Source: Diphasiastrum complanatum (Eukaryota; Streptophyta; Lycopodiopsida; Lycopodiales; Lycopodiaceae). Taken from it: a stretch of 64,000 nt of DNA. Positions 9,101 to 52,421 of the stretch are shown piece after piece. Each line of letters begins with the position of its first letter. Positions within the stretch are counted from its first letter, which is position 1. A program made the position numbers and the translations under genes. Location of the stretch: assembly GCA_029204225.1 (NCBI GenBank), contig CM055098.1:49068088-49132087 (forward strand). The letters are read 5' to 3'. The notes below the pieces were generated by a model. That model was given only the letters and a program-made list of their open reading frames with translations, had not been told where the DNA came from and searched no databases.

Positions 9101-12100
9101 ACTATGTCTTATATGATGTGATCGGTTTCCCCCCGGATGAACTTCAACAACTTACTAATAACTTATGCAAAACTGTTTCATTCACTACAGGGAACCACGA
9201 GACCTGCACAGTACTATGTCTTATATGATGTGATCGGTTTCCCCCCGGATGAACTTCAACAGCTTACTAATTACTTATGCAGAATTGTTTCATTCACTAC
9301 AGGGAACCACGAGACCTACACAGTACTATGTCTTATATGACGTGATCGGTTTCCCCCCGGATGAACTTCAACTTACTAATTACTTATGCAAAACTGTTTC
9401 ATTCACTACAGGCCGTCCGTCCGTTCCTCGTCCTGTCTGCTCCCACAGGTTCCTGGCGAGGTTGTCCGTTGGCCGAAACCGACGGCACCCGAAACGGATC
9501 ACGAATCGGTGGACTGTATTCCTGGACCATTTTGTCGATTCCAAATGTTTTCAGGTCCCGACCGGACAAAGTGTCCCTGAAGCCCTATTTGATGTCGAAC
9601 TTCGGAAGGGCGTACTGGGCCTGCCGTCTGTCCGGTCCTCGTCCCGTCTGCTCCCACGGGTTCCAATAGAGGTTGTCCGCTGGCCGAAACCGACGACACC
9701 TGAAACGGATCCCGTTTGGAGAAACAGGGACGTTGAACGGAGAGCTGCAAAACTAGTCCATTTCGCTTGACCTAATTGCGTTTCTATCCCGTCGAAGGGC
9801 CATTTTGACCGAACGACACCCGAATCGAGCCAGGCTCGGTCCTTTGAGTTCGCATCGGGATCACAAATCCGTGGACTGTATTCCTGGGCCATTTTGTCGA
9901 TTCCAAACGTTTTCAAGTCCCGTCCCTCGCGACGTGTCCTTGAAGCCCTGTTTAACGTCGAACTTTGGACGGACGTTGCAGGCCGACTGTCGGTCGTTTC
10001 CTCGTCCTGTTTGTTCCCACAGGTTCCTATCGAGGTGGTCCACTGGCCAAAATAGACGGCACCTAAAACGGATCTCGTTTGAAGAAATGCGGCCGTCGGA
10101 CGAAAAGCTGCAAAACTAGTCCATTTCGATTGACATAATTGCGTTTCTATCCCGTCGAACGGCCATTTTGACCGGACGATACCCGAATCGAACCAGGCTC
10201 GGTCCCTTGGGTTCGTACCCGCTTCACGAACCTGTGGACTGTATTCCTGAACCATTAATACATTCTACGCAGGTTTAAGTGTATGCTACACAAGTGCTGC
10301 TTTGATGTTGAATCTGCACATACCTGTGGTGCAATGCCTACCACACATTGAGGACGTGGGGTTGATGATGTTTATGGATGTGGTTATGATGATTATGGTT
10401 GTGACTTGTTTTGATGGTTATGGCTGTGGGGTTGTGGGTTTATGATGATTTGTTAGGGTTTATGGTGTTATGTTAACTGTGCCATTTATTAGGGTGTCGG
10501 GTTTAGCGTGTTATGTTAAATGGTTAAACATGATGCATATGTTATGAATGAGATGCAGATGTGTTGGTCTCTCTCTCTCTCTCTCTCTCTCTCTCTCTCT
10601 CTCTCTCTCTCTCTCTCTCTCTCTCTCTCCTGGAGATGGCTCCACGCGGATCTGCTCCTGCTATCCCTCGCACCATCTCCTCACTCCCTCCACGTCGGAC
10701 CACCCGCTCCCCCCTCGCTATTGTCTCCTCCCCCTCCCTCGCTGGAAACAGCTCCTCCACCGCTGAAAACAGCTCCTCCATCACTGAACACAGCTGCTCC
10801 TCCATCGCTGAACACAGCTCCTCCATCGCTGATGAAAACACCTCCTCCATCGCTGCTGGAAACAGCTACCCCCCCCTCTTTGCAGACAATATCTCCCTCG
10901 CTGGAAACACCCCCTCCCTCGCTGAAAACAGGGCCTCCTCCATCGCTGAAAATACCTCCCCCATCGTTGAAAATACCTTCCCCATCGCTGTCCTTACCAC
11001 CCTTGCTGCTGGATCAGACCCCTCGTTGCCTACAGTTGTGCACTCCCCCTCACTGTCCTCAGACCTGCCATCGCTGCCTACAAATGGTGTGGCACCCTCT
11101 TCTTCCTCTTCTTCTTCTTCCCCACTCTCACTCTCTTCTTTATCTTCTGTGGTTCCTCCCTCTCTTTCATCTTCTTCTTCTTCTGCATCCTCATCTCCAT
11201 CAATCTCCCACCCTGTTGCTCTAGCCACCCCTACAGGCCTTCTTCCTATCCCTATTCCTCAAGAACCCACAGCTCCCCCATCTGCGGTACCCATCCCATA
11301 CACTCCCTCACAAATCAACGGAACTATTTTCTTCCTGGGAAGCTGACCAAATGAAAGCCGATTTCCAGCTTTTGAAACATGAACTATCACAACTGAAAGG
11401 AATAGTGGTCTCCTTACTCAAGGAAAAAATGTGTTGCAGTCCAAAGTCGCTTCATTAGAGCAGGTGATCAACAATAAGCAGGTTGCAGCATCGGAATCAA
11501 CCACCACCAAGATAAAGGAGCTTGAGAGTAAAATAGAGCAGCATAAAGATTCATGGGCAGCAGTCTTGCAGAAAGGCACCAGACCTAGCGCCCCCATCTC
11601 TTCCGTCATCTCCGCCACCATTTCGGAAGAGAGGTCGAGGGAGCAAAAGGCCCACAACATCAGGGGTCGTGGGATACCAGACACACAGGATAACATTGAT
11701 GTCCAGACTACGGAGAGATTTATACGAGACACCCCAGCATTTTACCTCACAGCCATTGATTACTTCGTTCTTTACTAGACGGAGATCGCATGATTTAGTA
11801 CCTGAGGATGAGGATTATGATGAGGATGACGACGAGGATGTTGGCCGCTCTCATGCTCATAGAGATCAGAGACAGTGTACCTCCCACCATCAGGATACCA
11901 CCAAGATTACTAGACATTCTACGCAGGGGTGTACTACTACTACTACTACTACTACTACACATACACGTGCTCGTACTCAGAGATGCCGCCGGCAGGCTCC
12001 AGTGCTTTCCCATTCTGTGGCTCGCATTACATCTTTTTACAGCAGTAGCACAGCAAATGCAGCACAGCCTTGACATCTTACCCGAGACACATATGATTAT

Positions 12101-15100
12101 TATTATGTGCATTCTCGCATACGTGTCTATTTTAGGTTGCACTAGATGTTTTCTTCATTACAGTTTGGAGACGTTTTTATACGCTCCCATGGTTACCACA
12201 TACATGACATGTACTTCATTAGTCTTATATGCCTTTTGGCATGGAAAAGACATTAATAAAGCTTTCTTTCTTTCTTTCTCTCTCTCTCTCATCTTGCACG
12301 GAGCAAACCATTTCTGACTAACCATTCAAATTTCACAGAGCTAACCATTTGTAAGCAACCACGATAAATTAGCCATGACAAAAATAGACTGTAAAAAAAT
12401 ATATACATCTCATCTGATGCCACTGTACATGATATGATGCTAAAATGTGTATTAGTATCTACAAGTCTGTGCTAAAAAAATCATCCCTCTGCGTGCCAGA
12501 TGCATCTGCAGAGGTGTCAAATACAAAGTCTGGCTGGGAGTCTGGAGGCATCTGGGACTCCTCTAAGTCTGGGCCAACGCCTGCCAAGAGACGACTAGAA
12601 AAATCATCAGTGCGTCCCCTCTTGGCTGGCCTGCCTCTGGGTCTGCCGGAAGGAACCCTCTGTGGTACACTCCTGCCTGGGGGTCTCCCTCTGCCACGGG
12701 GGGGTTCTCTGGGAAGAACTGCTGCCTGTGATGCTCTGAGTCGTCTCTGCGCTATCTGTCTCTGGGCAGCAGCCTATGTCTCCCTCGCAAACTCTGACCA
12801 GCCATCATCTGAAAGGGGGCGTGATGCGGGAGTACTGGGTGGGGCACGTGGACCATCCCCTGCAAGGTCGACCGTCTCGTCTGAATCATATGTGGGCTCA
12901 TCAGAGGAGAAGGGCAATGGAACGTCAGTAGGGAGGGGGGGTGGTCTCATCGGCATCGGCATCATCCTCAGGATCACCCCGCAGAGCACGCCGAGCGGCA
13001 TCGTCTGGATCAACCTCTGGCTCTGGCTCACGATCGGCCGCTGCAACCAGGCACTCATCGGGATTGACCTGCACACGTCAATCATTCGTGAGAATAGCCG
13101 ACGCAACCGTGAGGGCATTAAACTAAATGTCTTAAACCAATACGAAAGCAAAACGACAGAGCAACGAAATATACCTGTAGCAGTAGGGCGCGTGCGCCTT
13201 CTGCCCTCATGCTCTCCGTGATGCATCGAACCACCCTGGTGTTGGTGTTGCAGTACACCAACAAGTCATTGCATCGCTCCGTCGTCAGACGGTTCCGCCT
13301 GTTCGTGTGAACAAGGCTGAACGCTGACCAGTTCCGCTCGCACACGCAAGCAGAACAGTCCTGCATTAATTGGCAACAACTCGAGTGAGTATCGACCTTG
13401 TAGAGAAATGCGAAAACTGGTTGGATGAATGAGATTAGACAACATAGCTGTGAAAGGACTCGGAGCTCGAGCGTCCTCAGGTCTGGCTGCCCAGGGCCGT
13501 AGCTCTCCCACCATGATATAGGCAAGAGCCTGTTCTCTCGAACACGTGCAAGGTCCTCGCCGAACAGCCCCAGAGAGTGCCTGCAGTTGAGCAACGATAT
13601 GCTTGAGTACACTTGAGCCCACGCAGGGAAATTGAACGAACAAGAGCGTACGATAGATCAAGAGTTTACCTGTAGCTGAGCCTCTACACCTTGAGCCTGC
13701 TGCGGATACCAATGTCGCTGCTGAGGAGGCAAATGTATGCGAACAAGTCCGCACGCAGCTCTGCATCGTCATACTGCCTCTCGCTCTGAAACAGCGGATG
13801 CAGTATGTGGGCCACACTGTGAATGGGCCGGTGAAACTTTTCCCATCGTCGCTACCACAAGTGCCTGATAGGCTCCAACCTGTGGACCAAACCACGTGGA
13901 GGCAACAGTTACATACCATCGTGTTGCGGCAGCAAGACGAAACAGAGTGCGAAATGGAAGTAAGGACGGTGAGACGGAAAAAAGTTATACCTGGCAGGGT
14001 CCAGCTCAGAACGCTGGAGAGACTCGCCTATGCGGTCCATGAACTCGTAAATGAGGCCCATCATGCACCCCTCGTGATCAACGAGCCTCAGAACAGAGTA
14101 GATGGGGCGCATGACGTCCATCAGCTGCTGCATATCCACCCAGAAAGGCTCCATGAATAAGATGTCGTGGAAGGCCAAGCCCTCTGGGGTCGTGGACAGG
14201 TCCATGGCGGTGAACTCTGTAGAAGTAGCCATGTGCCGCAAATCACCCTTGAGCTTGTGTAGCCGCTCAAGCATGATGAACTAGTAGGCGAAGCGGGTGT
14301 GAGCGGGCTTCTTCAAGTTGAGCCTGCATTGACAAACGGAATGAGAGGCACACATGAAAAGAGCAAAAAAAAAGAAGCATCTTGAACGAGCCAAAAAATA
14401 AGTAGTAGCTCAACTGCTGAATGTGCGGAAAAGGGCAGTCATGCGGCGCTTGCATGTGACGAAGTCCACAACCGCAAGTGCCCTTATGAGAATCTCACTA
14501 CCCAAGGCAAGCGCCTGATGGAATGCAGGAGGAGGTCCAGTGAGTGTGCGGCACATGAGTCCACACAATGGAGGGGTAGTCTGCCATAAGAAGCTCCCCC
14601 ATACCGCGGCAGTTGGACGCATTGTCCGTCACAACCTTTCGCGATACGTTCACACGATCAGTTCAGAGCTTGGAAACACATTGCAATCAATCGAAAACTA
14701 CGCAAAACTATTGTATCAACATCAAGCAGTAAATGACCAAGCAACTAATGAAAGAAGATTATACCTGGACAACGCGCTGTGGCCCGACCTCCTCTATCGT
14801 TGTGCGAATGATGCCGTAAATGTACTCGGCCGAATGCACTCTCCTTGCCTCGAAGGCGTCGATGCTGCGCAAAAACATGGAGCCGTAGCAACTAGAAACA
14901 ATCACGTTGATGAGTGGACGTCTGCGAACCTCATGCAGTGCGGCCAGTCTCTCTCTAACTTATGCAACCCGGTCCTGGAGCAAAGGGCCGCGTAGTGCGT
15001 CGGCTATGGGTGGTGTGTAGCCGGGCCCGCAGACTGCAACTTTTGAGATAGCCTCTCGAAAGATGCAGGATGATGCCATGATAAAGGGGAGATTCAGGTC

Positions 15101-52368: not shown

Positions 52369-52421
52369 GAGAGAGAGAGAGAGAGAGAGAGAGAGAGAGA
52401 GAGAGAGGGGGGGGGGGGGGG
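52369..52421. repeat. (GA)n followed by a G run
   Basis: About 19 GA units and then about 14 G. On the element strand of copy 9 this is C run plus (CT)n, like the C/CT tracts before copies 5 and 6. Confidence 0.95.

Follow-up and report, generated by a model that had tools for sequence, protein, structure and literature searches.

In a 64,000-nucleotide stretch of the Diphasiastrum complanatum genome (assembly GCA_029204225.1, contig CM055098.1, positions 49,068,088 to 49,132,087 of the forward strand; hereafter the window), several long interspersed nuclear elements (LINEs) share one 3' terminus and lie among CT microsatellites. Our analysis of these copies and of the host assembly indicates that diverse LINEs of the apurinic/apyrimidinic endonuclease (APE) type, together with their shorter deletion derivatives, very probably integrate into pre-existing (CT)n/(GA)n tracts, with CT on the sense strand. 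The original prediction, made from the letters of the window, had proposed that copies be collected genome-wide by their 3' terminus, and when this was done in the 1.74-Gb host assembly with the exact 16-mer AAAAGACRTTAATAAA, the pattern stood far above controls: the terminus occurred 7148 times (3528 forward and 3620 reverse), the reversed pattern 22 times (12 and 10). For patterns combining the terminus with a tract, forward counts are used, one per copy; reverse counts, in which one tract is counted repeatedly, were set aside, and the distinct reverse-strand places were read off for two patterns (four for a wrong-orientation tract on the 5' side, two for (GA)6 on the 3' side). Among the 3528 forward copies, (CT)6 began within 30 bp past the terminus in 2463 and (GA)6 in 3.

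The commonest 3' joint was AATAAAGCTTT(CTTT)n(CT)n, with (CTT)n, direct (CT)n and C runs as variants. In an unselected sample of 20 copies, taken as 10-kb stretches from the first 100 termini listed, the 16 bases past the terminus were at least 80% pyrimidine in 17 copies, compared with 3.5% of the 16-mers in the window, and (CT)6 or (TC)6 was present within 45 bp past the terminus in 14. A stretch of (A)10 began within 30 bp of only 5 of the 7148 termini (three forward, two reverse), each time behind a pyrimidine run, and on this count an ordinary poly(A)-tailed plant L1 was rejected. One subfamily ended in (AATTCT)n and not in CTTT/CT (locus L016, oriented position 6530; locus L061, position 565; window 39716-39767), and at L061 an apparent next truncated LINE followed this tail directly, with no CT tract between them. 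CT tracts of at least 26 bp showed a phase asymmetry across the genome, about 34,500 starting with purine-CT and, in the reversed control, about 61,000 ending in TC-purine.

On the 5' side, 73 forward copies genome-wide had a sense CT tract at a distance of 21-81 bp upstream from the terminus, and none had one in the opposite orientation, a comparison in which only the orientation contrast is informative since these short copies were chosen for having a tract. The orientation of insertion is thus nearly fixed. Chance adjacency to plentiful tracts was rejected, the wrong orientation being nearly absent; positions at most 10 bp beyond a sense tract on its 3' side made up 0.11% of the window and 0.15% of the window plus the 20 sampled stretches. 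Truncated copies started at the end of a CT tract inside open reading frame (ORF) 2 at window position 16137 (codon ~860), L016 oriented position 6711 (codon 669), L022 position 6706 (codon ~677) and L020 position 4288 (codon 703), and did so elsewhere in the element at L026 position 3525 (ORF1) and L024 position 8629 (3' untranslated region, UTR).

That the tract was there before the LINE is shown by one dispersed repeat. This repeat forms the left flank before the LINE tract of L018 (40 scored matches of 732 candidates), and 20 of the 39 other listed matches were read as paralogues; among the top 26, three on unplaced contigs and two others were skipped. In 19 of the 20, the equivalent place was occupied by a tract of CT or C/CT, a short one in L053. 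The right flank past the LINE tail of L018 continued the same repeat, being matched from its first base by L042, L045 and L046 at 85-86% identity and in part by L043, L049, L053, L058 and L059. All eight of these paralogues keep both flanks and were free of LINE sequence in the 431 bp read, and seven have the tract; in L042, L043, L045, L049, L053, L058 and L059 the flanks are parted only by the tract region. The two flanks with the tract between them thus represent the LINE-free state, of which L018 is the filled counterpart. A LINE began at the tract of the same repeat in L056 (ORF1, 98-99% identical to L016) and L022 (reverse transcriptase, RT), and probably also in L047, where 424 bp matched the head of the L012 copy at 90%, and in the near-identical pair L051/L052. 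A pattern search for the LINE 3' end joined to the right flank of this repeat returned only two places, C18 and C148, which have identical sequence. Past the tract, L048 and L060 shared similar non-LINE sequence (GCTGGAATGGG.. and GCTAGAATGGG.., respectively), as if another repeat entered or bordered the tract.

These empty sites bear on an alternative in which insertion is unbiased and the element itself brings or creates the tracts, its tail seeding an expanding microsatellite and the 5' tracts growing from short pyrimidine runs. Such a process would fit the CTTT/CT tail found on most copies and the tails common to head-to-tail copies. It is nevertheless very improbable, as the tract in LINE-free paralogues of one repeat contradicts it, the long tracts upstream of 5'-truncated copies cannot derive from the copies' own 3' tails, and the forward counts on the 5' side are oriented 73:0. 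The original prediction had left the choice between insertion into tracts and their creation undecided; the LINE-free paralogues of one repeat and the ratios 2463:3 and 73:0 support the targeting of existing tracts, while creation holds in part in that CTTT/CT tails are added.

Several observations weigh against the targeting of pre-existing tracts. When both strands were considered, (GA)6 was found on the 3' side of five distinct copies, four of them with a CT run in between, and four distinct reverse-strand copies had a 5' tract in the wrong orientation. The 5' end of the 20 unselected copies, judged by eye, was at a tract in nine (L009, with a CT/AC compound tract, L012, L016, L018, L020, L021, L022, L025 and L026), not at a tract in ten (L010, L011, L013, L014, L015, L017, L019, L023, L027 and L028) and outside the stretch in one (L024, which starts beyond its sampled stretch); in L012, L018, L020, L021, L025 and L026 homology leaves the first LINE base unfixed because the head region is variable. 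CT at both ends, as originally predicted, is thus common but not a rule, and by the share of non-CT 5' junctions, a majority of which the prediction had regarded as fatal to targeting, the result is borderline (nine CT and ten non-CT among 20), with the empty sites favouring targeting. The evidence from empty sites is limited to one repeat family of the host genome, in which L043/L049 and L045/L046 are near-identical pairs; L046 has neither tract nor LINE, implying that tracts are unstable, and the L018 insertion is compound, with ~280 bp of other DNA (oriented 3640-3910) between the first tract and the LINE head. This segment, which is possibly captured host DNA, contains a donor-like GTGAGT.

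The ten unselected copies with a non-CT 5' junction look as if only the neighbourhood had been chosen, which would agree with targeting through chromatin, or through binding of the ORF1 or ORF2 product to GA/CT DNA or to its proteins, in place of an endonuclease preference combined with tail pairing. We consider this route unlikely, since both the nearly fixed orientation and the frequent occurrence of a pyrimidine tract at the 3' joint implicate the priming step itself.

Another alternative concerns the short copies, of which 24 distinct termini were read among the matches listed for the upstream-tract pattern. These started at varied positions 1-80 bp before the terminus. Eight of the 24 read among the matches listed were situated directly behind another LINE tail (L029-L032, L063, L071, L073 and L077; L071 by eye only, the rest also by BLAST), and L078 sits within a LINE 3' UTR. 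With nine of these 24 listed copies behind or inside a LINE, some of the 5' CT junctions could be due to template jumping or to recombination of tracts, which adds to the points against targeting. In the eight, the first base was 9-68 bp before the terminus and several breakpoints fell in or near the 3' hairpin described below, and RT stalling followed by template jumping is a possible origin of the copies behind other tails. Extended to most 5' CT junctions, this explanation would have RT abort at the 3' hairpin and switch to another element RNA at its CU tail, giving CT-joined head-to-tail chimeras; the eight copies behind tails and their breakpoints speak for it, as does the L031 short copy, which has diagnostic bases of the copy in front. 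In this general form it is unlikely, given that 15 of the 24 short copies among the matches listed had no LINE homology in the 245-370 bp left of the tract (L069 and L070 being near-duplicates) and that L022 and L056 start in a resident tract.

A candidate target-site duplication was seen at L033, where (CT)23AAGTCCT precedes the element and (CT)32AAGTCCT follows it; the candidate is weak because five of the seven bases (GTCCT) also occur in the element there (compare window 36631-36640). At L074, CT-plus-C runs flank both sides, and a duplication is suggestive only. In L062, L074, L075 and L076, four of the 24 short copies among the matches listed, the tracts start 2-10 bases past what looks like the end of an exon, with GT, GTT or GTGCCCCCAT in front of the tract, and LINE and gene have the same sense; we take the genes to be WD40, GTPase-like, KMS1-like and SppA-like. 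The idea that short copies at intron starts are introners was rejected for the two of these four loci that were followed (L082 and L083, by eye), where no exon resumed near the tail.

From its coding sequence, the element is classified as an APE-type LINE, that is, a non-long-terminal-repeat retrotransposon. In the L016 copy, ORF1 (302 amino acids) and ORF2 (1183 amino acids) are both open. The endonuclease domain, which the original prediction had suggested looking for in an intact copy, was found in L016 ORF2 (Exo_endo_phos, residues 22-273, 2.5e-14), together with Exo_endo_phos_2 (6.6e-7) N-terminal of RT and with RVT_1 (1.6e-33; all Pfam), and the nearest solved structures in PDB were R2 proteins and LINE-1 ORF2p. 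No Pfam ribonuclease H (RNase H) family was detected at E ≤ 0.01 in L016 ORF2, the one copy scanned, and no Pfam family in L016 ORF1; L018 ORF1 had no convincing match in PDB (best E 0.69, unrelated). A viral_contigs scan returned no relative. The combination of a constant 3' end with variable 5' truncation that characterizes LINEs was observed, and deletion derivatives fusing ORF1 to the 3' UTR were present at window 10630-12260 and in L025. Other copies were mostly 30-80% identical to the L016 protein, some more, which implies several subfamilies that nonetheless have the terminus and the CT context in common.

Just upstream of the terminus, a 5-bp stem was recognized, with arms of four main types, ATGCC/GGCAT, GCACC/GGTGC, GTGCC/GGCAC and GTACC/GGTAC. 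In an alignment of 25 stem sequences (22 distinct), 92.7% of the cells were paired, three of the five pairs changed on both sides and 12 stem cells were doubly changed. The percentage paired, the number of doubly changed cells and the covariation score were each reached by none of 500 shuffles; less favourably for the stem, neither the number of pairs that change doubly nor that of additional pair types exceeded the shuffles (205 and 202 of 500, respectively). Folding of four sequences gave z values of -2.2 to -3.5 and added an outer stem, GUCUU/AAGAC, which uses the AAGAC of the terminus; this stem is nearly invariant in the alignment, and covariation is shown for the inner stem only. The RNA 3' end consists of the conserved stem-loop, then AUUAAUAAA, then the CUUU/CU tail, and the stem-loop would be the feature by which the RT of a stringent-type LINE recognizes its RNA. 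In the L077 copy, the RT reading frame runs straight into AGACATTAATAAAG, and the remaining 3' UTR including the hairpin has been lost.

Within the window, the shared terminus matched exactly at 12245+, 36707+ and 52027-, and with two mismatches at 39716+ and 51510-, close to the originally predicted 39714 and 51509; a further terminus with one mismatch was found at 39752+ (39752-39767). Allowing up to three mismatches, there were 12 window matches, compared with a mean of 1.84 and a maximum of 7 in 100 shuffles. Repeats do replace poly(A), as predicted, all six window ends leading into cttt, ctt, ct or aattct repeats, and the copy starts after CT or C/CT at 10630, 36745, 39790 and minus 51440 were confirmed in the sequence. 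Truncated starts after CT likewise held for 16137 and for minus 52365 (earlier given as 52368), but no 3' terminus of its own was found for the 16137 copy, and two copies (~35240+ and ~51790-) begin in non-CT sequence.

The first copy on the plus strand (10630..12260) follows a (TC)31 tract (10568..10629, +) seen in the sequence, starts 6 bp upstream of the apparent ORF1 ATG and comprises ORF1 (homology at 11230-11691) and the 3' UTR without ORF2, as an internal-deletion derivative. It includes the stem-loop (12222..12251, +; outer stem GUCUU/AAGAC, covarying inner stem AUGCC/GGCAU, folding z -3.5), ends with the exact terminus at 12245 and has the tail gctttctttctttctttctctctctctct (12261..12290, +) at its 3' junction. 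A (CT)172 tract (15793..16136, +) provides the 5' junction of the 5'-truncated copy at 16137..16770 (+), which matches ORF2 861-1070 (53% identity, 1e-60), and homology revealed a related fragment at 21453..22691 (+; ORF2 383-830, RT) with no terminus and a non-CT 5' junction. Another 5'-truncated copy with a non-CT 5' junction (35240..36722, +; ORF2 727-1175, exact terminus at 36707) is followed by the tail ctttctccctctctctctctcc (36723..36744, +), which also serves as 5' junction for the copy after it (36745..39731, +). The latter contains ORF1 and most of RT (ORF2 524-1183, 75-90% identity to L016 ORF2) but no endonuclease, and ends with the two-mismatch terminus at 39716-39731. Next come an AATTCT-type tail, the second terminus and a CT/C tract (together 39732..39789, +). 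The tract heads what is probably the start of one more copy with a remnant of ORF1 (39790..40110, +), a weak assignment made by direct reading (ATG at 39800) with no tblastn match.

On the minus strand, a (CT)21 tract (52366..52407) forms the 5' junction of a 5'-truncated copy (52012..52365) with the end of ORF1 and the 3' UTR (by eye), the exact terminus and a ctt tail, its 3' part matching other copies. A short copy at 51495..51800 (minus; direct reading and sequence matches) has a non-CT 5' junction and a terminus with two mismatches, and its ctt/ct tail (51441..51494, minus) doubles as the 5' junction of a LINE head at 50400..51440 (minus; ORF1 homology at 50411-50924). No endonuclease domain was found within the 64-kb window by tblastn homology search. 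Beside the LINE cluster there are tandem repeats with 112-bp units (9091-9412) and 363-bp units (9495-10256), the latter overlapping a minus-strand open frame (9551-10255).

For integration, we propose that the endonuclease cuts the (GA)n strand of the target, whose exposed 3' end would base-pair with the CU-rich tail of the LINE transcript and prime reverse transcription, RT being bound to the 3' stem-loop of that RNA. Slippage on the repetitive primer would yield the variable CTTT/CTT/CT tails, and a second nick, often in or just past the tract, would account for the CT, at times with a few further bases, at the 5' junction. Where reverse transcription stopped early, very short copies would result, and head-to-tail clusters would arise when new copies inserted into the tails of older ones. 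Tentatively, one simple repeat may even serve several steps of the life cycle: copies would land on (CT)n, use (GA)n to prime on their CU-tailed RNA, provide tails in which the next copies land and possibly have a promoter or 5' leader in the tract left upstream. The last role is suggested by several window copies that begin only ~6-30 bp ahead of what looks like the start codon of ORF1.

LINEs that target microsatellites occur in some animal lineages. Kibi and Koshi, APE-type LINEs of the Tx1 clade in fish, target TC and TTC microsatellites; their source paper, Kojima and Fujiwara, 2004, is among the references of PMC3706591. They are like the present LINE in being of APE type and in targeting microsatellites, a likeness of behaviour, but their hosts are fish, whereas the host here is a plant. 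SART, TRAS and Waldo of the R1 clade are also target-specific for simple or telomeric repeats, and resemble this LINE in their APE endonuclease and in inserting into such repeats. Plant L1 elements encode an APE endonuclease and RT. In its accessible part, PMC2684134 names Kibi and Koshi as fish retroposons, and the accessible part of PMC4640811 places target-specific APE-type LINEs in the Tx1 and R1 clades and reports RNase H for clades including R1 and plant L1. By that account RNase H is present in the R1 clade and the I group, though not in every member, and in plant L1, in contrast to the L016 ORF2 of this LINE, in which Pfam revealed none. According to the text available of PMC3747384, flowering-plant L1s almost always end in poly(A), one L1 lineage of maize and sorghum has a conserved 3' stem-loop, and plant RTE elements terminate in (TTG)n or (TTGATG)n. 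The stringent-type L1 of maize and sorghum is like this LINE in combining APE and RT with a conserved 3' stem-loop, whereas flowering-plant L1s differ in their poly(A) end from the CTTT/CT end and CT-tract location seen here; plant RTE shares a simple-repeat tail without poly(A), but its repeat is a different one.

A literature search of titles and abstract openings, with subscription papers mostly beyond reach, found no plant LINE with CT targeting, and the element is a new LINE family for a known behaviour, in a host kingdom that is possibly new for it. Its thousands of copies offer many natural examples of LINE site choice and of priming on a simple repeat. CT targeting goes some way towards accounting for the nested clusters of LINEs around CT tracts, and it may connect a retrotransposon with the way CT microsatellites have spread through the genome.

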